Shown here piece by piece: positions 2,689 to 25,475 of a stretch of DNA of 28,344 nucleotides. Both the position numbers and the translations under genes were made by a program. The notes under the pieces were generated by a model, which saw nothing but the letters and a program-made list of their open reading frames with translations, ran no database searches and was not told where the DNA came from. Source of the stretch: a virus; IMG/VR virus record IMGVR_UViG_3300020463_000098, positions 1 through 28,344 of that record; one strand, 5' to 3'. How positions within the stretch are numbered: position 1 is the first letter of the stretch; each line of letters begins with the position of its first letter.

Positions 2689-4279
2689 AACCTGTGAACG
2701 ATCCAAATATAGGCATGGGTGTGATTTCGCTGGTACGATCTGTCCATTTTTCAAATATTTTAGGGTCAAAATCTGCTAGAACTTTCATCATACGTGTCAT
2801 AAGCAAACAAGAACTTACTAGGTCGTCGTGCTGTCCTGGTTTTGCTTTGAAGCTCATTCCCGAAGCAACAAAATCCTTGAGTTCTGAGATTAGCAACTGT
2901 GAGTGAATCTTCATTTTATTGTTCTCTATGAGTTCTTTGAATTTTGTACATGCGTCTATCTTATGTTTCGCTGTTGTGTTGAATCCTCTTCTAAATTTTC
3001 TTCTGTGTCCTTTCCTTATAGGTTCTGACAGGAACATACCCATTATATTTTCTTCACCTATATCCATAACCCTTAAAAGGGCCGCTTCTCCTATTGAGTT
3101 GTTCTCCATTGAATAGAATATTTGTGGTGTAGCACTCGAATCTTTTTCCATAATAGAATCATGCAAATGTTTTGTGATTTGTTGTAGTATTCGTACTTGT
3201 TGATTCATTGGTGTGGTGTTATGGTGCCATTCACCAACTTGTTCAAAAGTAGGTAATTCAAAAACCTGTATTGCGGCGTAATCTCCTCCAGTACCCATGG
3301 CAGGATCCAAGGAAACCATGTAGGTCATTCCTGGTGTTGGCCGCTTAAACCAACGCACCTGTCCTGTGGTCTCAATAGGTGCCGATGCCTCCATATCCGC
3401 AAGATGTATGCTGTCTATAAGTGTTTCATCAAAGATTAAGAATTCACATTCGTGTTCCCTTCTGAATCTTTCGTCACCTATTCTAGACCTTTCGGCAGTT
3501 GCCCAAGTGTCATCTCTGTCCGGATGTTCTGACCAGTGTGCTTTCATGGCGTAGAATCCATTAGTTCCTATTAACTTGTCATTGCCATATTCGTCGAATC
3601 TTTTATTTGCTTCTTTCCAAATCAATGCAAACTGATCTTCATCAGAGTTGGGTGTGCTTGTGATCATGCATTTACCACCTGTGCTCAATGTAGGAGATAG
3701 TGATGTCCAAAACTCTTTAGCCTTCTCTGGTGGTTGTACGAAAGCGAACTCATCACAGTATATTAACGTAAGTGACATACCCCGTCCTGTGTTCTCAGTT
3801 GTTGTGGTTGCCATGATTTTAGAGCCGTTGTCAAATTCTATACTATTCCTGTTGTATTGTGTTACACCTGCTTTGATCCAACTGGGCAACATCTCATAAG
3901 CATAACGCACCCTTGACATGATGTCTGATGCACCTGCGTATTTGTGTGCCGCGATTAGTATCTGTGAATCTGGTCTGAACATAGCATACCATATAAGGAA
4001 TCCAGAGGCACAGGTTGTTTTACCTGTCTGTCTTGGTAGCATAGCGATTGAAAATCTATGATCGTTATAACTTTCTATGAGTCTCTCTTGATATGGATAA
4101 GGTTCAAAAGGCATAGATCCTTTTACCGGATGTTGTATCTTCATGAAGGATCTCATAAAGAACAATGGTCCAGTTTTTGGGTCCATGCACTTCTCAAGTT
4201 GTTCTACCTGGGTCTTACTGTACTTGTGCTTCTTATGAGCCTTCTTAATTTGATCGCTATCTAGTGATACATACGCCAT
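2687..4279 (-). CDS. 17: Terminase large subunit (gp17-like ATPase-nuclease)
   Basis: This is the motor that pumps DNA into the prohead and cuts concatemers. The ATPase domain has Walker A LPRQTGKTT (81-89, Lys87), Walker B LIYCDEFAF (Asp176, catalytic Glu177) and coupling motif TSTPN (207-211). The RNase H-like nuclease domain has Asp325 in SLDPAMG, Glu392 in SMENNS and Asp485/486 in QHDDLV, corresponding to the T4 acidic triad. It is 530 aa against 610 aa in T4; the N-terminus is shorter. All key residues are intact. The gene lies downstream of gp16 with two uncharacterised genes between them, whereas T4 has 16 and 17 adjacent. Start at ATG 4279 (MAYVSLDSDQ), with an A/T-rich core and no clear SD. 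Confidence 0.97.
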   Translation of the reverse strand: MAYVSLDSDQIKKAHKKHKYSKTQVEQLEKCMDPKTGPLFFMRSFMKIQHPVKGSMPFEPYPYQERLIESYNDHRFSIAMLPRQTGKTTCASGFLIWYAMFRPDSQILIAAHKYAGASDIMSRVRYAYEMLPSWIKAGVTQYNRNSIEFDNGSKIMATTTTENTGRGMSLTLIYCDEFAFVQPPEKAKEFWTSLSPTLSTGGKCMITSTPNSDEDQFALIWKEANKRFDEYGNDKLIGTNGFYAMKAHWSEHPDRDDTWATAERSRIGDERFRREHECEFLIFDETLIDSIHLADMEASAPIETTGQVRWFKRPTPGMTYMVSLDPAMGTGGDYAAIQVFELPTFEQVGEWHHNTTPMNQQVRILQQITKHLHDSIMEKDSSATPQIFYSMENNSIGEAALLRVMDIGEENIMGMFLSEPIRKGHRRKFRRGFNTTAKHKIDACTKFKELIENNKMKIHSQLLISELKDFVASGMSFKAKPGQHDDLVSSCLLMTRMMKVLADFDPKIFEKWTDRTSEITPMPIFGSFTG

Positions 4280-4286
4280 AGTGTAG

Positions 4287-4294
4287 TATTTAAC
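4287..4294 (-). promoter_or_regulatory. Weak late-promoter-like element GTTAAATA before gp17
   Basis: Six of eight positions match TATAAATA, and it ends 7 nt before ATG 4279. It lacks the second-position A of the better sites, so it may only be an A/U-rich initiation region. Spacing resembles the near-leaderless promoters elsewhere in the window. Confidence 0.3.
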
Positions 4295-4318
4295 GCTGTG
4301 GGTTAAAGTAGAAAAGTA

Positions 4319-5173
4319 TTACTTTGCTTCTTTGTCTTTGATGGCTTTTTTCATTGGTTCTTTTTTGTCGCCATCTTTGTCCATGTCCAAGAAGTCAGGT
4401 TTTGCCGCTTCTTGATATGCTGTCTTGAAACTTTCGTACTGTGCTCTTAGGCTGTTTGCTAAATCTTGTTCTGTGATTTTATCCTCTGCCGCCATTGGAT
4501 TGTCACCAGGAGAAACCCTCATATGAGTTTTCTTCTGTCTGTTCAAACCACCTGAGTGTTTGTTCACTAGACTGTCAACGTCTTGTACTTTCTCTTCAGG
4601 TTCGTTTGCAAAAGTTTCAGCCGCTTTTTCTTCATCGGGAGCAGTCATCATGTCTCTCATTTTACCCATTTGCATACTTCTCATTGCATCGTCGCCTGGA
4701 ACATCCATCTGTTTGTTCATTGCACCCGGATCCATGTCTGACCCATGTTCTGGTTCTGCACCCATCATAGACGGATCAACTTGTTGGACGCCTGCAAGTT
4801 TTAATATCTGCATCATCATTGATGCCTCCTGTGGGCTGTCAGTTGAAATTTGGATTGCTTCTTTCACAGTTTCCTTTTTGTCTTCCTTGCCTGCTTTCTT
4901 ATCATGGTATGCTTTCAAGCCCGCTGGCATCTTGCCTTCGACTGCTTCTTCTGTTCCATTATAGGCTTCCCAAAAACCAGCCATTGCTGATCCGTACTTT
5001 TCAATAAATTGTTCCTTTGTCATGCTTTCAGCATCATCTTCCATTGCTCTTTTTGTTGCACTTTCGTCAACTTTTGGATTAGTCTTCTCAACGTTCTCCA
5101 CTGCATCTTTGACCAATTCAGGTTTTGATTCTGCTATTTCTTTTAACTTTGTTAGTACGTCTATCATTTCCAT
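4319..5173 (-). CDS. Uncharacterised acidic 284-aa protein, possibly head-associated
   Basis: Function not recognised. The protein is very acidic and rich in Met, Lys and Glu with low-complexity segments, as expected of a scaffold-like or internal head protein. Visible features: MMQILKLAGV (120-129), a relative of the LxRIxxLAG motif in the 643-aa gene, and a C-terminal tail KPDFLDMDKDGDKKEPMKKA (258-277). That tail contains an EF-hand-like loop (Asp263, Asp265, Asp267, Gly268, Asp269) but has Met at the position where the last calcium ligand, Glu, is usual. I recall this tail from other marine phage proteins. It lies between the 198-aa gene (2 bp gap) and gp17. The start at 5173 has AAGGA about 9 nt upstream; ATG 5167 is an alternative. 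Confidence 0.75.
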   Translation of the reverse strand: MEMIDVLTKLKEIAESKPELVKDAVENVEKTNPKVDESATKRAMEDDAESMTKEQFIEKYGSAMAGFWEAYNGTEEAVEGKMPAGLKAYHDKKAGKEDKKETVKEAIQISTDSPQEASMMMQILKLAGVQQVDPSMMGAEPEHGSDMDPGAMNKQMDVPGDDAMRSMQMGKMRDMMTAPDEEKAAETFANEPEEKVQDVDSLVNKHSGGLNRQKKTHMRVSPGDNPMAAEDKITEQDLANSLRAQYESFKTAYQEAAKPDFLDMDKDGDKKEPMKKAIKDKEAK

Positions 5174-17810: not shown

Positions 17811-17830
17811 ATGACCATGGTCATTTTTGT
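17811..17830 (+). terminator. Palindrome and T-run between convergent genes
   Basis: A perfect 14-bp palindrome ATGACCATGGTCAT (17811-17824) is followed by TTTTG on the plus strand, starting 1 bp after the Nudix stop. The methyltransferase stop codon (17821-17823) lies inside it. As a hairpin the stem is only 5 bp with a CATG loop, so termination strength is uncertain. Confidence 0.5.
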
Positions 17831-18423
17831 TTTGTAAGCATATACACGCCAACACGTCTACCAGCATTGTGCTTGACGATTTGTGGGAAAGTTTTCATCA
17901 TTTCATCATGGCTCCAATCATCTTTGATATGTGCCTCGTATGGGTTTCCATGCGACTCGCCTTGTGGGTAGTGTATGATTGGAATGCTGATGAAAAGGTA
18001 TGTTGACACTTCCAATATATTTTTAACTACATCGATTGCATCTTCTTTGGTCATGTGTTCTAATACGTCTCCGGCTATGGTTACGTCAAATTTGCCAATT
18101 TCTTTGTAATTCAAGTTACGTGCATCTTCGATCAATACTGTGTCATACCTATCTCTGAGATCAAACTCGTCTACATATGGTGCCCATATCTCAACACCAG
18201 TCCATTTACTGTCTGCCAAAGGACCACCATTAACCAACCAATTGTGTTCCAGTGTTTTATACTTCTGACCACCTGGTTGATATTTGTGTTTGAGCCAATT
18301 CAGGTACGCACCTTCCCCGGGACCAATGTCCATTGCCGCTTTATGGATAAGTTTATTTTCTGCTTTGAGTTGTTCAACCCATTCTACTATGGTGGCCTTT
18401 CCGGCTTTTTTACTGTATGGCAT
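17821..18423 (-). CDS. SAM-dependent methyltransferase (class I)
   Basis: The 200-aa protein has a Rossmann-type SAM motif AMDIGPGEGAYL (30-41), followed by a later acidic strand GKFDVTIAGDVLEHMTKEDA, where GDVLEHM is the usual motif of small-molecule methyltransferases, and FISIPIIHYPQG. The substrate is not recognisable; it could act on a carbohydrate, nucleotide or protein. Start ATG 18423 (MPYSKKAGKA) is used because the in-frame TTG at 18432 lies in the terminator T-run. It is transcribed from right to left after a terminator hairpin that lies between its candidate promoter (18482) and its ATG. No SD is present. Confidence 0.8.
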   Translation of the reverse strand: MPYSKKAGKATIVEWVEQLKAENKLIHKAAMDIGPGEGAYLNWLKHKYQPGGQKYKTLEHNWLVNGGPLADSKWTGVEIWAPYVDEFDLRDRYDTVLIEDARNLNYKEIGKFDVTIAGDVLEHMTKEDAIDVVKNILEVSTYLFISIPIIHYPQGESHGNPYEAHIKDDWSHDEMMKTFPQIVKHNAGRRVGVYMLTKQK

Positions 18424-18430
18424 ATTGTGC

Positions 18431-18460
18431 AAAAAAAAGGCGACCCGAAAGCCGCCTTTT
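18431..18460 (-). terminator. Rho-independent terminator after the 671-aa fibre
   Basis: On the minus strand AAAAGGCGGC (18451-18460) pairs with GTCGCCTTTT (18435-18444) with one G-U pair around the 6-nt loop TTTCGG, followed by more T. The loop resembles the TTCG loop of the gp23 terminator. It ends 8 nt before the methyltransferase ATG. Confidence 0.85.
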
Positions 18461-18481: not shown

Positions 18482-18489
18482 TATTTATT
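18482..18489 (-). promoter_or_regulatory. Late promoter core AATAAATA overlapping the fibre stop codon
   Basis: Seven of eight match. It overlaps the stop of the 671-aa fibre (18488-18490). The next gene is the methyltransferase (ATG 18423), but the terminator hairpin at 18435-18460 lies between them. Confidence 0.5.
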
Positions 18490-20503
18490 AGTTGTTAGAC
18501 CTCACTGCACAGTTTATCAATTTGACACCTGCGTCAGTAGAAGTTTCTAATGCTCTACCAATGACGTTGAAAGGAGAGATTGACTCACCTTGCACCACTG
18601 CTCTAGCACAACCTTTTGTTGATGATGTGACTAATCTTTGACCTTTAGTTACCTCACCTACAACTCTGACTGGTGTTCTACCTGTCATCGCTACGAAAGG
18701 GTGTGTTTCGTCAGGGCCTGCACCATAGTTCATCATGTATGCTGGTTTGTGAGAGATAACACCAAACACATCCTCAGACATTTCTGAAGTGATTTCAGTG
18801 ATCTCTGCTGAACCGCCTACCATAACTACCGAACCTGTTTCCATAGGAGCGTCTGCTTCGAAACGCTCCGCCACGTCCGCGTACTGTGCCGCTGACGCCG
18901 TGGATGCAATTACATTGGTTGATGGATTGTATTTCAAGCCAGTGTCTGTTTCAATGCCCTGTGTTCCAGATGCACCATCTACTAGACAGATAAAGATATC
19001 TTCATTGGCTGTGTTGTTCGCGGTAACTGTTACCCCAGTGGCAACTGCGGCTGTTCCTGAGGTGTCTTGGTTACCTGATGTGTTGACACCTGGCAAGTTG
19101 ATCGCCGCTGTACCATCAAAGTTGACACCACCGATTGCTCTGGTAGTTGCTAGTGCCGTGGCAGTCGCCGCGTTACCTGTACAAGATCCTGAACTTCCTG
19201 ATGCATTACCTGTGACGTTACCTGTCAAAGCGCCAGCAAAGCCTGTTGCTGTAAGCACACCTGAACTACTATTGAAAGTTAGGTTGGTTCCTGATTTAGG
19301 ACCCAAGTCTCCAGTGGCCGCTGTTGTGAAAAGTACATTACAACTAGTATCACTGCTTTCGTCTGCTACGGTCACTGCCGTTGCCACATCTGCTGTACCT
19401 TCTAGGTTGGCCAAAAGCGTTCCTACTGATACGGTAATACCACCTGATTTGTCAGCCGCTGTTGCAGTTGTCAAACCCATTGCGAATTTGTCTGCTGACT
19501 CGTCAAAGATGATTGCCGCGTTGTTACCCGTTGAACCCCTCTCGATGATGATACCTGCATCATTGAATGACTGAGATATACCTGTGTTCAGTTCTATGAT
19601 GTTGTCTGCTATTGTTGTGTTGGTTGTGCTTACTGTTGAAGTTGAACCGTTTACAGTCAGGTTACCTGTCAACACAAGGTTACCACCAATTGTTGCGTTG
19701 TTGGTTATTGCCGTGTTGCCTGTTGCTGTAAGATTCAACACACCTGTTGATGTCACAGTCAAGTCAGTTCCGTCAGACTCGATCTTCTCACCACCTGTAC
19801 CATATGCAATTCCCACGTCGTTTGGAATCTCTACGTCTGATGTTGCTGTAAGTTTTATTTTTGCTCCAGAATTGATTGTTAGGTCCGTGTCATTTGATTC
19901 AATCTTCTCACTTCCGTTGTCATCAAACACTATACCTATGTTTTTTGGAATGTGTACATCTGATGTTGCTGTAAGATTGATCTTGGCACCTGAAGTGACA
20001 GTAAGGTCTGTGTCATTTGATTCGATTTTTTCACTTCCGTTGGCATCAAAAACTATTCCCACGTTTTGTGGAACGTGTACATCTGATGTTGCCGCAAGAT
20101 TGATCTTGGCACCTGAAGTGACAGTAAGGTCTGTGTTGTCACCCTCAATCTTTTCACCTGTACCGAATGTCACCCCAACGTTTGCAGGTACTACCACGTC
20201 TGTTCCTGCTGTCAGATTGATCGCACCCGATGCCGTGACTGTGGTTGTTGCCGCCGTCTGGCTCAATACCGCGCCGCCGTCTGCTGTGTTGGTGATTGTT
20301 CCGTTCGAACCCGTGTCTGCTACTACTACACTGGTGTTAAGGACTGTAAGATTTACCTTGTCGTCTACGTATTTTTTGTTTGCCACGTCACCGTCATTAC
20401 TTGGTGCCGCTGTTGCTAGTCCTACAATGGTGTTTGCTGTTCCTGATATTACGATATCGCCAACTTCTATTCCATTATGGACTCTAAAGTTTCTTGTTGT
20501 CAT
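18488..20503 (-). CDS. Tail fibre with repeat stalk and peptidase G2-like C-terminal domain
   Basis: A 671-aa Thr/Ser/Asn/Gly-rich fibre. The N-terminus (MTTRNFRVHNGIEVGDIVIS... GDVANKKYVDDKVN) is the usual marine-phage fibre attachment region. Residues about 116-238 hold three near-identical units of about 41 aa (EKIESNDTDLTVTSGAK with NVGIVFDDNGS). Residues 281-356 form a block shared with the 1616-aa fibre (SQSFNDAGIIIERGSTGNNA). The C-terminus from about 540 (YADVAERFEADAPMETGSVV, GVISHKPAYMMN, GRTPVRVVGEVTKGQRLVTS) resembles intramolecular-chaperone/autoprotease domains (peptidase G2 type) at the ends of phage fibres. It has its own promoter, leader with GGGAG, and terminator, so is regulated separately. 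Confidence 0.8.
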   Translation of the reverse strand: MTTRNFRVHNGIEVGDIVISGTANTIVGLATAAPSNDGDVANKKYVDDKVNLTVLNTSVVVADTGSNGTITNTADGGAVLSQTAATTTVTASGAINLTAGTDVVVPANVGVTFGTGEKIEGDNTDLTVTSGAKINLAATSDVHVPQNVGIVFDANGSEKIESNDTDLTVTSGAKINLTATSDVHIPKNIGIVFDDNGSEKIESNDTDLTINSGAKIKLTATSDVEIPNDVGIAYGTGGEKIESDGTDLTVTSTGVLNLTATGNTAITNNATIGGNLVLTGNLTVNGSTSTVSTTNTTIADNIIELNTGISQSFNDAGIIIERGSTGNNAAIIFDESADKFAMGLTTATAADKSGGITVSVGTLLANLEGTADVATAVTVADESSDTSCNVLFTTAATGDLGPKSGTNLTFNSSSGVLTATGFAGALTGNVTGNASGSSGSCTGNAATATALATTRAIGGVNFDGTAAINLPGVNTSGNQDTSGTAAVATGVTVTANNTANEDIFICLVDGASGTQGIETDTGLKYNPSTNVIASTASAAQYADVAERFEADAPMETGSVVMVGGSAEITEITSEMSEDVFGVISHKPAYMMNYGAGPDETHPFVAMTGRTPVRVVGEVTKGQRLVTSSTKGCARAVVQGESISPFNVIGRALETSTDAGVKLINCAVRSNN
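19436..19663 (-). repeat. Fibre-shared block in the 671-aa fibre
   Basis: Residues 281-356. It is the counterpart of the two blocks in the large fibre, showing exchange or duplication of modules between the two fibre genes. Confidence 0.75.
19790..20158 (-). repeat. Tandem ~41-aa repeats in the 671-aa fibre
   Basis: Three close units (roughly residues 116-157, 158-198, 199-238) and a fourth decayed one. Each has EKIExxxTDLTVTSGAKIxLxATSDVxxPxxVGI. The copies are near-identical at the DNA level, suggesting expansion by slippage or recombination. Confidence 0.75.
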
Positions 20504-20562: not shown

Positions 20563-23500
20563 TTATTCTGCTAGACAGTTGATTCTGTACGCATTGACCA
20601 CTGTAGATCCACCCGATGTGGACGCCACTGACAATTCCACACTGTTATCTGCATCTGATTTGAATGCGGCTGTGAATTCAAGTTGGACTGTTGCTTTGGT
20701 CGAAACGAATGGTCCTTGGGAAACAGAGGCCTCTCCTGGTGCCCCAGAACAATAAACTTCCTGTACACTGAAAGCACCTTCCGTGGCATTTTTTCCCACC
20801 ACGTAATACACGGCCGCTGTGGCATCATCTAGATCAAAGTCGTCAAATACTGTGGCACTAGAACTAACTGTGGTAGCACCTATGATTTTTTGATTTGAGT
20901 TTGATACCGCTGACATGGAGTCAGATAGTAAAATTTTGTGTATTTTCAATGATAAGTTTGGTGTTAGGCCTGCCGCTGACAGCACAACGTTACTGCCAGA
21001 TATTGCCGCCGACAGTATGATCATGTCGTTGTTACCTGTGTTGATTGTGCCATACTGGGATACGAAAGCGTTCGTGCCGTCATGAACCACAAGTGCTTCC
21101 GTTACACCTGTCTCCGTCTTGGCGTTGTCATCTATAAGAATTAGGTACTTCGCCGCCCTGAATGATGCGTGAGCGAATGTGTCTATGCTTTCTGATGCAG
21201 AGTCCACATCTGTGTTGGAAGTTGTGACAGTGACACCTGCTGTGGCGTCTGCCGTGTTAGCTCTCGAAATTGGAATCTTGTAGTAACTGATCTTGGAATC
21301 TGCACTGGGAGCCGCTATCTTGACCCTTACCTGGCCACTGGATATGTCCGCTGATGTTGTTGGTAGCGAGTTGCTTGAGCCAGAAGAACCACCCCTGGCA
21401 CTGCTTACAAAAGCATTTGAATTGTTGTGTGTCACTGCAAAACAAGATGAACTGGAATGGTCGTTTGTCAAATCATTGAGTGCAACAAAGTACCATGCCA
21501 GGTCTGCACTTGTTGATTGGAAGTAGTCCACTGTCCTCGGCGATGTGGACACCGATTTGTTGTTCTTGGTTACGGCCCTGGTATCGTCTGATGCAGTCGC
21601 CGCCGCTGAAGCAAATGACATTGTTCCTGCACCATCCGTCTTTAACACGTCGCCTGCGTTTCCGTCTGCTATTGGCATCTTGAATGTCGTGCCGCCTGAC
21701 GTGAAAATTAAGTTAGTGCCATCTGATTTCACAGATTCATTTGCGTCCACAAACTCAATTGCCTTGTTGGTACCTAAAGTTATCTTGTCATTGAACGTTG
21801 CGGCACCTGCCGCACTCATGTCCAGTGACAATGCCGTGACCTCTGCTCCACCATCGTTACCTCTGAATGACATATCTCCATCACTTATACGTGATTTGAT
21901 TACAAGGTCATTAGTTGCAACAGCAACGTTACCATAAACTGTTCCACCAGCAATGAAATCTATAACACCCGAAGCGGCGTCTAATTCAATGTCTCCAGTG
22001 GAGTCTATTATTGTTTTACCACTTGAACTAATTGTTAAATTGGTACCATCACCTACAATGTTTTCTCCTGCGTCACCGAATTGTAGGATACCATCGTTGG
22101 GTAAGATAACATCATGATTGAAAGTGGCAGTACCCGCCGCACTCATGTCTAGTGTCAATGCTGTGATAGTTGAACCACCATCATTGCCTTTGAATATCAT
22201 ATCTTTATCAGATACAACTGATGAAATTACAAGGTCATTACTCGAGTCTTCTAATTGACCATATTGGGTGCCATTATCCGATAGTTTTACACTTGTAGGT
22301 GCGTCTAAAGTAATTGTACCAGATACGTCTATTTGATAGTTGTCTGAACCATGGTCATAATGAACAAAAGCCGCCGTTGCACTACTTGAATCTCCATAAT
22401 AGATACTTTGGAAACCACCACCTAAAAAGGCGATCTTAGCATTATTTCCACCATCGATGGTCAATGCTTGTGTAGGACTTGTTGTGTTAATACCAACTCT
22501 ATTATTAGAACTATCAACATGTAAAGTATTTGTATCAACTGTTAAGTCTGCTCCTATGACCACACTTCCTGAGCCGTTAGCGTTTATCTCCAAATCAGCG
22601 TTTGAACTGTTAGAAGTTATGACGTTGTCAGTGATAGTGACTCCGTCCGCCTCCAGTGATGCAATTTTCAAACTGCCTGCGTCGATCGTGATTCCTCCCG
22701 ACTTGTCTGCGGCAGTGGCCGTGGTGGTCCCTAGGACAAAGGTGTCTGCAGACTCATCCCATATGATCGCGGCATTGTTGCCTGTGCTTCCCCGTTCAAT
22801 GATTATTCCAGCGTCATTCAATGACTGTGAAATTCCTGTGTTCAGTTCGATGATGTTGTCTGCGATGGTTGTGTTGGTTGTGCTGACAGTGGATGTATTA
22901 CCACTCACAGTCAAGTCCCCAGAAATTGCTACATTCCCGGAAAAAGTACCCGTAGTGGCAGTCACACCGGCATTGAATGTTGCGGCGCCCGCCTCACTCA
23001 TGTCCAGTGTTAGTGCTGTGATGCCAGATCCACCATCATTACCTCTAAAGGTAATATCAGCATCGGACTCACTTGCTCTAAAATCAAACTTACCGGAATT
23101 TCTTTTAATATGACCAAATTGAGTTCCATCTGAATAAAATGCTACAGTAGGATTTCCAGAACCTAGTTTCATATCAACTTTAGCACTAGAACTAATTGTT
23201 AAGTCTGTGCCATCACCCGAGATACTTTCTCCCGCATCTCCGAATATTACTTTCTTGTTGTTTGCTAAAGTTACATCACCAACTGTTGTCAAGTTCCCTG
23301 AACTGTCACCTGCGATCCAAGTTGTGGTTGTTGAGCCGTCATAGCCTGCTATTTTTAATTGCCTATCTCCAGTTCTACTATCTGGATCAACAGTTCCAAT
23401 AATTACATTTCCTGAGCCTGTAGTAATACCTGATGTATTATCGTTGGCTCCAGCATTATAACCTATAAAAATATTGCTATCTCCAGTTGTGACTTCTCTA

Positions 23501-25413
23501 CCAGCATCTCTACCAATCGCTGTATTTTCTTTGGCCCCAGAAGATACATTCATGGCAAAAGCACCTACTACTGTATTACTAGCAGAATTACTATCTGTGT
23601 TTGAACCAGCGAAAGCACTAGAACCAATAGCTGTATTTAGATTAGCACTTACAACCCCTTTACCAGCTTCATAACCAATTAAAGTATTATGAGAAGAAGT
23701 AGTAAGTAAAGTTCCAGCGTCATGTCCCAGAGCAGTATTTCTATCTCCAGAAGTCAACGCATCCAAAGTTCCAATACCAACACCAGTATTCTCTTGTGCA
23801 GCATTTAAAGTTCCATGAGTTGAGTGACCAACTAATAATGATCCTGTAAAGTTTGTTCCTGCGATTTTTATAAAATCACCTGTAGGTGAGTTAATAACTG
23901 GAGCAGTTAAAGTTTTATTTGTTAAAGTCTGTGATGCTGTGTTAAGTGTTATAGCACTTGTGTTTGAAAGATCGGTTGACGCAATGGTTATGGCGCCTGT
24001 ACCGTCGAAACTCTGTCCTGCTATGTTCCTGGCAGTTGCTAGTGCCGTGGCAGTGGCCGCATTGCCTGTTGTTGATCCTGAACTTCCCGAAACGTTCCCT
24101 GTAACGTTACCCTCAATATTGGCAAGCAGTGTACCTTTGGTTACTGCTATGCCACCGGATTTGTCAGCCGCCGTGGCCGTGGTAGTACCAATAGAGAATT
24201 TGTCTGCTGATTCGTCCCACCCGATGAATGCATTGTTGCCTGTTGATCCTCTTTCGATTATGATACCAGCGTCATTTCCTGATGATGATGTGCCTGAGTT
24301 AAGTTCTATTATGTTGTCTGAAATCGCAGTGTTGGTGGTGGAAACTGTGGTAGTGGTGCCATTGACTGTGAAGTCACCTGCGACGATGACATTTCCTGAG
24401 AACGTTGCCGAAGTGTCGTTTACGACCAGTTCGGTGTTACCTTCTGCCGTAAGCGTGATAGCACCATTTGACCCCGTGTCCGATACGACTACTGAGGTGT
24501 TACCTTGCGTAATTGTCGTTGATGATAGACTAGAAACTTCACCATCCACGTATGCCTTGACACTCTGTTGGCTTGGCAATCTAGTGGCACTGTTGGATGA
24601 CATATCATCTTCGTCGATCAAGGCCGCCGTGATCCTAGCATCTGCTCTTGCGTTTGTGAAGTAAAGATTGGTTGAACCTTCTGTGATCTCATCAGAGTTG
24701 TCTTTGCCAGCCACCTGTGCATCAACATAGGTCTTGATCGCTTTCGCAGAAGCCAGTGTTGTGTCTGTGCCAGCCACGCTTGAAATATCTGTGTCTAGGA
24801 CACCTGATTTAAGATCCGCCACGTCGATGTTTGAAATGCTGTTGCCTGTTGCTTCAACATCAAATGTTTTGTTGGTCAATGTCAATGTGTCGCTGGCTAT
24901 GTTGGCATCCTGTGCATCAACATATGCTTTGATTGATTGCTGTGTTGCTAACGAAGTTGCACTGTTTGATCCCATGGCATCTTCGTCGAGTATCGTTGTT
25001 ATGGTAGATCCACTAGTGCCTATTTTAAGGTTCTCAAGGACTACGGTTCCTGTACCACTGGCGTTGATGTGTAGATCGTCGTTGGATCTATTAGTTGTAA
25101 GTGTGTTATCGCTTATGCTTAAATCATTCAAAACTATGTTACCAGTGCCGGCTGTGGTTATGTTGAAATCTGCATTTGATGGTGCTGTCAATGTTGATCC
25201 AACTGATACAATATCTGCTAGATCTTCCAGTGTTGCGAACTCTAGGGCATTACCTGCCGCGTTGGTTCTGAGAACTTGTCCCGCTGAACCTATGGCTGTT
25301 AAGCCTGTACCACCATTTGATACGGGTACAGTTTCACCTGATTGGAATTCCGCCATTCCAGTGGCCACGTTTGATGCGTTAAAGACTACTCGTACCGGTG
25401 TTTTATCTGCCAT
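20563..25413 (-). CDS. Large repetitive tail fibre / adhesin (1616 aa)
   Basis: The largest gene in the window. It starts MADKTPVRVVFNASNVATGM, then GETVPVSNGGTGLTAIGSAG, a tail-fibre N-terminal signature. Internally it has QQSIKAYVDAQ/QQSVKAYVDGE motifs, two copies of the block shared with the 671-aa fibre, a YadA-head-like region (NTALGHDAG, NTAIGSSAF, ENTAIGRDAGREVTTGDSN; DNA about 23380-23815) and repeats with GNDGGxxITALTLDMSxAG. Three related beta-sandwich domains fill the C-terminus (residues 1294-1616 of this start). Base composition is patchy, with A/T-rich insertions. ATG 25413 is chosen over an in-frame GTG at 25446 that lies inside the leader. It is likely the long host-binding fibre; receptor unknown. 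Confidence 0.85.
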   Translation of the reverse strand: MADKTPVRVVFNASNVATGMAEFQSGETVPVSNGGTGLTAIGSAGQVLRTNAAGNALEFATLEDLADIVSVGSTLTAPSNADFNITTAGTGNIVLNDLSISDNTLTTNRSNDDLHINASGTGTVVLENLKIGTSGSTITTILDEDAMGSNSATSLATQQSIKAYVDAQDANIASDTLTLTNKTFDVEATGNSISNIDVADLKSGVLDTDISSVAGTDTTLASAKAIKTYVDAQVAGKDNSDEITEGSTNLYFTNARADARITAALIDEDDMSSNSATRLPSQQSVKAYVDGEVSSLSSTTITQGNTSVVVSDTGSNGAITLTAEGNTELVVNDTSATFSGNVIVAGDFTVNGTTTTVSTTNTAISDNIIELNSGTSSSGNDAGIIIERGSTGNNAFIGWDESADKFSIGTTTATAADKSGGIAVTKGTLLANIEGNVTGNVSGSSGSTTGNAATATALATARNIAGQSFDGTGAITIASTDLSNTSAITLNTASQTLTNKTLTAPVINSPTGDFIKIAGTNFTGSLLVGHSTHGTLNAAQENTGVGIGTLDALTSGDRNTALGHDAGTLLTTSSHNTLIGYEAGKGVVSANLNTAIGSSAFAGSNTDSNSASNTVVGAFAMNVSSGAKENTAIGRDAGREVTTGDSNIFIGYNAGANDNTSGITTGSGNVIIGTVDPDSRTGDRQLKIAGYDGSTTTTWIAGDSSGNLTTVGDVTLANNKKVIFGDAGESISGDGTDLTISSSAKVDMKLGSGNPTVAFYSDGTQFGHIKRNSGKFDFRASESDADITFRGNDGGSGITALTLDMSEAGAATFNAGVTATTGTFSGNVAISGDLTVSGNTSTVSTTNTTIADNIIELNTGISQSLNDAGIIIERGSTGNNAAIIWDESADTFVLGTTTATAADKSGGITIDAGSLKIASLEADGVTITDNVITSNSSNADLEINANGSGSVVIGADLTVDTNTLHVDSSNNRVGINTTSPTQALTIDGGNNAKIAFLGGGFQSIYYGDSSSATAAFVHYDHGSDNYQIDVSGTITLDAPTSVKLSDNGTQYGQLEDSSNDLVISSVVSDKDMIFKGNDGGSTITALTLDMSAAGTATFNHDVILPNDGILQFGDAGENIVGDGTNLTISSSGKTIIDSTGDIELDAASGVIDFIAGGTVYGNVAVATNDLVIKSRISDGDMSFRGNDGGAEVTALSLDMSAAGAATFNDKITLGTNKAIEFVDANESVKSDGTNLIFTSGGTTFKMPIADGNAGDVLKTDGAGTMSFASAAATASDDTRAVTKNNKSVSTSPRTVDYFQSTSADLAWYFVALNDLTNDHSSSSCFAVTHNNSNAFVSSARGGSSGSSNSLPTTSADISSGQVRVKIAAPSADSKISYYKIPISRANTADATAGVTVTTSNTDVDSASESIDTFAHASFRAAKYLILIDDNAKTETGVTEALVVHDGTNAFVSQYGTINTGNNDMIILSAAISGSNVVLSAAGLTPNLSLKIHKILLSDSMSAVSNSNQKIIGATTVSSSATVFDDFDLDDATAAVYYVVGKNATEGAFSVQEVYCSGAPGEASVSQGPFVSTKATVQLEFTAAFKSDADNSVELSVASTSGGSTVVNAYRINCLAE
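20566..21534 (-). repeat. Three tandem C-terminal domains of the 1616-aa fibre
   Basis: About 95-115 aa each, and diverged. Each has an aromatic opener (VDYFQ, IDTFAH, VFDDFD), a Y/W-rich strand (AWYFVALND, KYLILIDD, VYYVVGKN), an AFVSS/AFVSQYG/ASVSQGP turn and a closing strand (KISYYKIPIS, LKIHKILLS, NAYRINCLAE). The pattern points to triplication of a beta domain. Confidence 0.55.
22675..22920 (-). repeat. Fibre-shared block, second copy in the 1616-aa fibre
   Basis: Encodes NTTIADNIIELNTGISQSLN followed by DAGIIIERGSTGNNAAII, near-identical to 19436-19663 in the 671-aa fibre and related to 24145-24385 in the same gene. The DNA is also highly similar. Confidence 0.75.
24145..24385 (-). repeat. 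Fibre-shared block, first copy in the 1616-aa fibre
   Basis: Encodes a diverged form with NDAGIIIERGSTGNNAFIGW and ATAADKSGGIAV. It is followed by a GNVTGNVSGSSGSTTGNAAT linker that also occurs in the 671-aa fibre. Confidence 0.7.
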
Positions 25414-25475
25414 AATGTTCTCGTTCTGTCCCCGGTCTTCTTGCACTCACCGGATGGATATCCTATCAACAAGTG

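Follow-up and report, generated by a model that had tools for sequence, protein, structure and literature searches.

Exchange of parts between phage tail fibres is a known process. In the excerpts of the published work on which we draw, pelagiphage fibres have variable ends, one of them with a YadA domain (PMC3909814), YadA domains appear among the putative receptor-binding proteins of pelagimyophages and cyanomyophages (PMC7029224), and fibre modules are common to different phage families (PMC10579305). The excerpt of a further study lays stress on recombination that joins different groups of marine phages, for the most part in co-infection (PMC8528129). Among the papers listed in a literature search, judged by titles and abstract openings, none concerned the present fibre. 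In the light of this work, the kind of event reported here, tail-fibre mosaicism, is already known; what is new is a well-resolved example, with sub-gene detail and a site in mid-shaft. In the textbook picture, the swapped part of a fibre is its receptor-binding tip.

The DNA analysed, called the window below, is a virus record of 28,344 bases with a GC content of 0.43. We consider it highly probable that its large fibre is a mosaic, belonging to a T4-like marine myovirus lineage, in which two modules, A and B, were imported from a pool of AT-rich marine phages. The YadA-head-like A and the second module B would have come from phages whose closest annotated representatives have Pelagibacter (SAR11) as their host, probably by recombination in short linker motifs common to AT-rich and GC-richer phages. 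The exchange would have spared three native parts, namely N-cap, middle piece M and C-terminus, and kept the reading frame open, while the imported stretches would have drifted only slightly toward the codon usage of the genome.

The carrier phage and its fibre genes

A T4-like myovirus backbone is present in the window. It comprises a T4-type terminase, a contractile sheath, a gp15 sheath stabiliser and head closure, with matches to PF03237, PF17289, PF17482, PF16724 and PHROG. The best isolates among the matches listed (the best 12 for each) are PA5oct-like Pseudomonas phages, at 56% protein identity for the terminase and 44-45% for the sheath, so that no close isolate stands among the matches listed. 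The fibre genes, with the shaft repeat common to both, are as follows.

20563..25413, minus strand: the fibre gene, 1616 aa from its ATG, in a frame open to a GTG at 25446
24108..24380, minus strand: shaft repeat D1, with further copies at 22650-22922 in the fibre and at 19396-19668 in the gene that follows
18488..20503, minus strand: second fibre-like gene, 671 aa, next downstream, with repeats D1 and D6 in common with the big fibre

The single open frame (20563-25446, minus strand) makes 1627 aa from the GTG, or 1616 aa from an ATG placed 11 codons in. In a relative, contig L008, the open frame starts one codon ahead of the equivalent ATG, and for this reason the length of 1616 aa assumed from the outset is probably right. 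Codons are numbered here from the GTG (subtracting 11 gives the ATG numbering). Pfam and PHROGs gave nothing at E 0.001 for the big fibre, Pfam rows at E 0.001-10 for segments other than A being disregarded as below the cut-off, and a sequence search of solved structures found no match.

Steps of codon composition

Optimal segmentation of GC3, with 1-12 segments tried, has its best BIC at five. GC3 is 0.42 over codons 1-491 and 0.46 over codons 1202-1627; between these lie two low stretches separated by a high one.

23026..23973, minus strand: module A, codons 492-807, GC3 0.16, with NTxxG (YadA-head-like) repeats
22558..23025, minus strand: segment M, between the modules, codons 808-963, GC3 0.53
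21844..22557, minus strand: module B, codons 964-1201, GC3 0.23

When GC3 states were permuted among codons of the same amino acid, none of 100 shuffles matched the observed fit (logL -1041.3 for the best shuffle, -1005.3 observed). In 60-codon windows compared with the codon usage of the whole window, the GC3 deficit reaches z = -4.4 in A and -3.1 in B. A seven-segment fit, with a worse BIC, adds an island of GC3 0.40 inside A (codons 701-748), near the overlap of A and M. The initial annotation had noticed two segments of A/T-ending codons within one frame; segmentation and shuffles confirm them, with borders within 83 bases of those that it had proposed (23040-23960 and 21880-22640). GC3 is not uniform along the gene: it moves in steps. 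The NTAIG-type repeats attributed to the second segment are located, as claimed, in 23026-23973.

Low GC3 might be intrinsic to modules of this type, a matter of codon selection, RNA structure or amino-acid make-up rather than of origin; the GC-richer fibres of L008 and L003 likewise have low GC3 in their A-type module. We find this very improbable. Shuffles and expectations keep amino acids fixed, and the closest DNA relatives of A and B are contigs that are AT-rich throughout. The GC3 of the A-matching stretch and of the rest of the gene is 0.42 and 0.35 in CRP-1, which is the informative control, and 0.19 and 0.20 in S-RSM4, 0.19 and 0.17 in ACG-2014i and 0.12 and 0.11 in Kolga, three genes with low GC3 throughout. 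The B motif is also found in L366 and L368 (GC 0.57-0.58), there in a context of GC3 0.60-0.61.

Relatives of each segment

Nucleotide maps were preferred for this comparison: whole-fibre tblastn missed pieces of L008, and the blastp map merged pieces via low-level repeat similarity. Two further segments form the ends of the fibre.

24913..25413, minus strand: N-cap, kept in its own lineage, 81.7-88.2% DNA identity in the nine best contigs
20566..21732, minus strand: C-terminal 389 aa, a beta-sandwich string, kept in most of the lineage set

The N-cap (fibre nt 1-532) has its DNA relatives in L125 (88%) and in L115, L118 and L119 (85%). Those of module A (nt 1514-2150) are L002 (86.5%) and L001 (84%), contigs of GC 0.34-0.35. 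For segment M (nt 2464-2894) they are L125 (86%) and L008 (85%), in contigs of GC 0.44-0.46, and L008 has a second copy of M at 91% DNA identity. Module B (nt 2895-3704) resembles L023 (86% over 395 nt) and L021 and L022 (74-75% over more than 800 nt), of GC 0.34-0.35, and the C segment (nt 3700-4884) resembles the lineage contigs L109 (86%) and L101 (83%). Segments of one gene have different nearest relatives, as is expected of a mosaic, and the main relatives of A and B are not those of their flanks.

The same division appears in the genomic background of the relatives. Distinct matches were taken from 70% identity and 100 nt upward, with a maximum of 20 per segment; the GC of their background has a median of 0.347 for A (n=15) and 0.361 for B (n=20); elsewhere it is 0.406 for the N-cap, 0.420 for N-mid (codons 179-491, a segment that contributes its background GC alone), 0.422 for M and 0.402 for C (n=20 each). 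Comparing the 35 matches of A and B with the 80 of the other segments gives a Mann-Whitney p of 7e-9, which is indicative only, since the loci were retrieved for their likeness to the segments under comparison and are not independent. There are GC-rich exceptions. L003 (GC 0.45), which bears a low-GC3 block of its own, matches at 84% across the N/A border, and L008 (GC 0.46) matches at 81% at the end of A. Since a GC-rich contig, L003, matches A at 84%, the last transfer step may have come from a GC-rich intermediate. None of the contigs compared exceeds 87% DNA identity to A or B over at least 100 nt, so that none of them would be the direct donor.

Within the lineage of the carrier, the fibre is unevenly kept. 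The lineage set consists of 34 loci hand-picked from the fetched contigs, near-duplicates included, several of which end before the N-cap; L128 (843 nt) was excluded. These loci have the gene neighbourhood of the fibre in common with the window: the gp15-like protein is matched in 32 of the 34 (median identity 89.5%) and the Nudix protein in all of them (91%). Counting the best single stretch per locus at more than 60% coverage, the C-terminal 389 aa are matched in 34 of 34, at 41-90% with a median of 78%. The N-cap is matched in 27, at 33-94% with a median of 75%, and segment M in 26 (median 63%). Module A is matched in only six, at 27-56%, and module B in 27, at only 24-34%, which is the level of the repeats. 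Close alleles of A and B are absent from the lineage loci examined. The C-terminus itself has diverged in some members (56% in L125 and L008, 41% in L003, 64% in L214). The middle of the fibre is the most variable, and the ends are not immune.

Mosaic fibres have a conserved N-terminal part, and this one has it, the N-cap being the likely tail attachment part. A variable C-terminal tip, usual in classic mosaic fibres though no strict requirement, is not what we find, the diverged members just named excepted. In 13 relatives with a complete fibre, its length runs from 716 to 1342 aa, compared with 1616 here.

Borders and linker motifs

Each change of relatives falls at or near a motif that is found in other phages.

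23908..23931, minus strand: QTLTNKTL, on which the N/A break falls (near fibre nt 1505), in AT-rich and GC-richer contigs
23317..23409, minus strand: NVIIG...DRQLKIAGYDGSTTTTW, the A/M overlap, where the AT-rich L001 and L002 stop and the GC-rich L008 begins
22489..22530, minus strand: NTLHVDSSNNRVGI at the start of B, with the homology break at 22552/22553 (fibre nt 2894/2895) just ahead
21790..21834, minus strand: ALSLDMSAAGAATFN, the third copy within the fibre, lying where B and C overlap (fibre nt 3545-3704) and found in AT-rich and GC-richer contigs

The motif at the A/M border has the form of an end cap, NVIIG...DRQLKIAG...W. Motifs were surveyed in the plus-strand frames of 492 loci, 193 with GC of at most 0.37, 208 with at least 0.39 and 91 between. 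As these loci had been retrieved for their likeness to the fibre, the numbers of distinct sites are biased frequencies: in AT-rich and GC-richer loci respectively, 41 and 23 for LTNKTL, 13 and 2 for the NVIIG end cap (scarce in the GC-richer loci), 23 and 27 for NTLxVD, 67 and 29 for ALxLDMS, and for the D1 shaft motif IxDNIIELN 0 and 14 (none in the plus-strand frames of the 193 AT-rich loci). The border motifs are in use by AT-rich and GC-richer phages alike, and recombination in these linkers would be the cause of the exchange.

At the B/C border, the GC3 break at codon 1201 (nt 3603) seems at odds with a break in homology close to nt 3700. C is matched by L225, L434 and L437 starting at nt 3545-3585, and B by L021, L022 and L024 up to nt 3683-3704; as the C matches start before the B matches end, the crossover probably lies in the overlap, which holds the ALxLDMS motif.

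Shared motifs and repeats are also where assemblers misjoin. The contig is metagenomic, and its borders coincide with or adjoin motifs that many contigs have, as expected if the assembly had used shared repeats to join reads of an AT-rich phage to a GC-richer one. Such a chimera would have had to keep the frame open through four borders, and the joins recur elsewhere: at DNA level L003 (84%, 297 nt) as well as L282/L143 and L144 (73%) span N/A, L008 (81%, 837 nt) spans A/M and L225/L433 (75%, 1325 nt) spans B/C. Moreover, the independent contigs L008, L003 and L125 bear low-GC3 blocks of the same two types in GC-richer fibres. The weakest join is M/B, crossed at DNA level by none of the other contigs compared; in ten of the matches that extend furthest upstream, likeness to the window sets in only at about DLTVDTNTL. 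On balance, we judge an assembly artefact improbable, and an imported origin of A and B remains the reading that we prefer.

Cassettes at one site in relatives

For GC3 segmentation of relatives, 30 loci were offered and 22 fibre frames qualified. One clear low-GC3 block is found in each of L008 (0.16), L125 (0.14) and L003 (0.18); the blocks of L008 and L003 are of A type, that of L125 of B type. Eight of the 22 frames show two steps, the lower part lying at 0.21-0.35, and the remaining 11 are flat.

L008 and L125 are closely related to each other. Over 654 C-terminal fibre residues their DNA is 94.2% identical, and they are 91-97% alike over most of the downstream stretch and 88% over the upstream stretch, while their N-caps are just 71.5% alike. 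Directly upstream of the common block, L008 has an A-type cassette whose best match is the AT-rich L013 (GC 0.32; 83% over 632 nt). At the same site L125 has a B-type cassette, which is 99.6% identical to the lineage contigs L205-L207 and 78% identical to L180/L181 (GC 0.35). The window represents a third arrangement. From the different cassettes in these two relatives, and a third in the window, we infer exchange at the site and passage within the lineage. A broader proposal can be made, tentatively and at less than even chances: mid-shaft would be a standing exchange site, into which cassettes of two types, the YadA-like A and B with its NTLxVD motif, come repeatedly from the AT-rich pool of SAR11 phages, to be passed on within the lineage via shared linkers, while the ends usually stay. 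If exchange needs co-infection, this lineage of GC 43% and AT-rich pelagiphage-like phages would share, or would recently have shared, host cells, which would make a lead to the host.

The probable AT-rich donor pool

In open frames of at least 200 codons, the donor-like contigs have a GC3 of 0.11 (L001), 0.10 (L002) and 0.14 (L021-L023). The best phage record for L001 is Pelagibacter phage HTVC106P, at 73.8% over 56% of the contig; the 32 phage records that it matches include cyanophages as well, at 67-73% over 4-7% among the matches listed. L002, L021 and L023 are closest to HTVC023P, HTVC027P or 023Pt_psg01 (host unknown), over 10-46%. The DNA of the fibre itself matches seven phage records, all of them Pelagibacter phages; six of the matches lie in A or B, and the seventh, HTVC104P, at the end of the N-cap. 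At the protein level 49 records match, 27 from Synechococcus phages and nine from Pelagibacter phages. The Synechococcus matches are at lower identity. Because of this Synechococcus majority and of the cyanophage matches of L001, the designation of a Pelagibacter-phage donor group is a matter of closeness, not of exclusivity. To judge from these matches, Pelagibacter phages would be the nearest known donor group, not a proven one. A scan of bacterial genomes with A1 gave six relatives among 68 pattern matches, the best (45%) on a contig of a Candidatus Pelagibacter MAG.

The direction of transfer, into the GC-richer lineage, would follow from composition. Compared with its relative, the window has a GC3 of 0.16 vs 0.09 for L002 (190 codons) and 0.21 vs 0.13 for L023 (131 codons), and third-position differences that are GC-ward in the window outnumber the reverse by 19 to 6 for L002 and 21 to 10 for L023; L001 was left out of these counts, its alignment being out of register (identity at codon positions 1+2 only 0.40). 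This GC-ward lean of A and B fits early drift from an AT-rich source. We give it little weight, because outside the modules M leans toward GC as well (19 to 12 vs L008) and the N-cap does not (14 to 19 vs L125).

Structure and possible function

The C-terminal model is confident (pLDDT 85) and forms a string of beta-sandwich domains. Residues 180-285 of this 403-residue model resemble the C-terminal domain of T4 gp9 (Z 13.1, rmsd 2.1, 106 residues) and also the C-termini of Acinetobacter phage tailspikes, at Z about 10. Module A gives a weak model (mean pLDDT 59.7), for which Foldseek returned nothing at E 0.001 or better, and Pfam has no family for this module even at E 10. VIA, where a Z under about 13 may reflect a mere common arrangement in repeats, places A next to BoaA (Z 10.1, rmsd 3.0, 131 residues, 21% identity), EibD (Z 10.2), CbpF (Z 10.2), an ice-binding protein (Z 10.3) and left-handed beta-helix enzymes of the LpxA/LpxD type (Z 9-10). 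Sequence identity is 15-22% in the group of adhesins and ice-binding protein and 2-12% in the enzyme rows. With no Foldseek match, structural support for A comes from VIA and is weak; going by its model, module A is probably YadA-head-like. Its end caps are highly conserved and its repeat is elaborate.

What the modules do is a different matter. They were first described as acquired host-binding modules, and of this description acquisition and mosaicism are supported, while host binding is a putative role: A and B lie mid-shaft, and the ends are, with exceptions, better kept. This position, with a better-kept C-terminus and N-cap, fits badly with the swap of a tip. Still, A and B might be true receptor-binding adhesin domains that set host range, with the origin just described. 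The likeness of the A model to the trimeric autotransporter heads BoaA and EibD and to the adhesin CbpF speaks for this, as do the differences in modules among close relatives and a published pelagiphage fibre with a YadA domain in a variable C-terminal region, as given in the excerpt (PMC3909814). The same model, though, has a low pLDDT, an ice-binding protein and beta-helix enzymes score equally and Foldseek finds no match; besides, the modules are internal, and the C-terminal string, with its gp9- and tailspike-like domain, would be the more distal part should the fibre attach by its N-cap. We would put the chances of an adhesin role somewhat short of even. Doubtful too, and a shade more so, is that A and B are shaft spacers whose exchange is neutral or concerns length only. 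The position in mid-shaft and the range of fibre lengths among relatives agree with this, but an elaborate repeat with conserved end caps, swapped as a unit, suggests more than filler. We think that the likeliest function is an altered side surface or length of the shaft, which would modulate reversible adsorption, rather than a swapped receptor-binding domain at the tip.

Comparison with known systems

Composition, relatives and border motifs agree in making this fibre a well-resolved case of sub-gene exchange across phage groups. It suggests that phages exchange parts of the shaft as well as the tip, and that the AT-rich phages abundant in the ocean are a source of fibre pieces for phages of quite another kind. 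With reference to other genomes, GC3 steps in fibre genes make a practical marker for recent exchanges and for guessing shared hosts.

The best annotated DNA match to module A is the tail fibre of Pelagibacter phage Kolga EXVC016S (MT375529, gp17), at 74% in three pieces over fibre nt 1577-2475. Like the fibre of the window, it has an NTxxG-type module; unlike the window, it is AT-rich throughout (GC 0.32 for the locus, GC3 0.11 for the fibre), in a genome of 48.7 kb and without a compositional step. T4-like cyanophages (S-RSM4, ACG-2014 and others) have YadA-like NTALG repeats in large fibre-like virion proteins, which are 31-38% identical to the fibre among the matches listed. In S-RSM4 and ACG-2014i, by contrast with our locus, the GC3 of the module equals that of the rest of the gene, with no sign of recent import. 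The YadA-type heads of BoaA and EibD resemble A in the look of the repeat and, if the model holds, in a possible left-handed parallel beta fold; A differs in being part of a phage fibre, not of an autotransporter, in having no Pfam match and in being known from a low-confidence model.

The fibres of metaviromic islands, from presumed SAR11 phages so far as the excerpt describes them (PMC3909814), have in common with the present one a YadA-type module in a highly variable region. Their YadA domain is C-terminal; that of the present fibre is internal and belongs to a T4-like lineage richer in GC. Finally, in the Alteromonas phages A5, V22 and P24, host-recognition parts are exchanged across families and morphotypes, as fibre parts seem to be here. 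What moves there, according to the excerpt (PMC10579305), is whole modules, fibre together with chaperone, whereas in the present fibre the units are sub-gene cassettes in mid-shaft.

Fibre halves and cassettes in related phages

Fibre genes were compared in two contigs that are close relatives of each other, L008 and L125:

L008 1502-5527, L008 fibre
L125 3463-6876, L125 fibre

Their C-terminal halves are 94% identical and their N-terminal caps differ (71.5%), as does the low-GC3 cassette lying directly upstream of the 94%-identical half. A relative (45%) of module A, a low-GC3 stretch in the big fibre's mid-shaft, is found at 5001-5552 of L350, a contig assigned to the Candidatus Pelagibacter MED605 bin, and possibly a phage contig or a prophage within that bin.

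Two other genes of the window

17821-18432, minus strand, methyltransferase-like gene, 203 aa
9257-12676, minus strand, tail sheath gene, 1139 aa

The 203-aa gene, flanked by the second fibre gene and a Nudix gene, matches PF08241 (methyltransferase) weakly (E 4.5e-5), and tblastn gave no match to it in the 34 lineage loci or in the 492 loci fetched by fibre similarity. When the window is compared with L125, the gene appears to be an insertion, roughly 620 nt long. Where both neighbours are present (109 loci), they lie a median of 71 nt apart, and more than 500 nt apart in 32 of these loci. The sheath product is long and terminates in the sheath C-terminal domain.

Repeats within and between the fibre genes

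19809-20177, tandem repeat (123-nt unit, three copies), second fibre gene
19396-19668 (second fibre gene), 22650-22922 and 24108-24380 (big fibre), 273-nt repeat, 66-71% identity
19140-19222 (second fibre gene), 24029-24111 (big fibre), 83-nt repeat, 83% identity

Identity to the first tandem copy is 80% and 65% for the other two. Since the 273-nt and 83-nt repeats are both common to the two adjoining fibre genes, within-genome exchange between these genes would be a possible further route.
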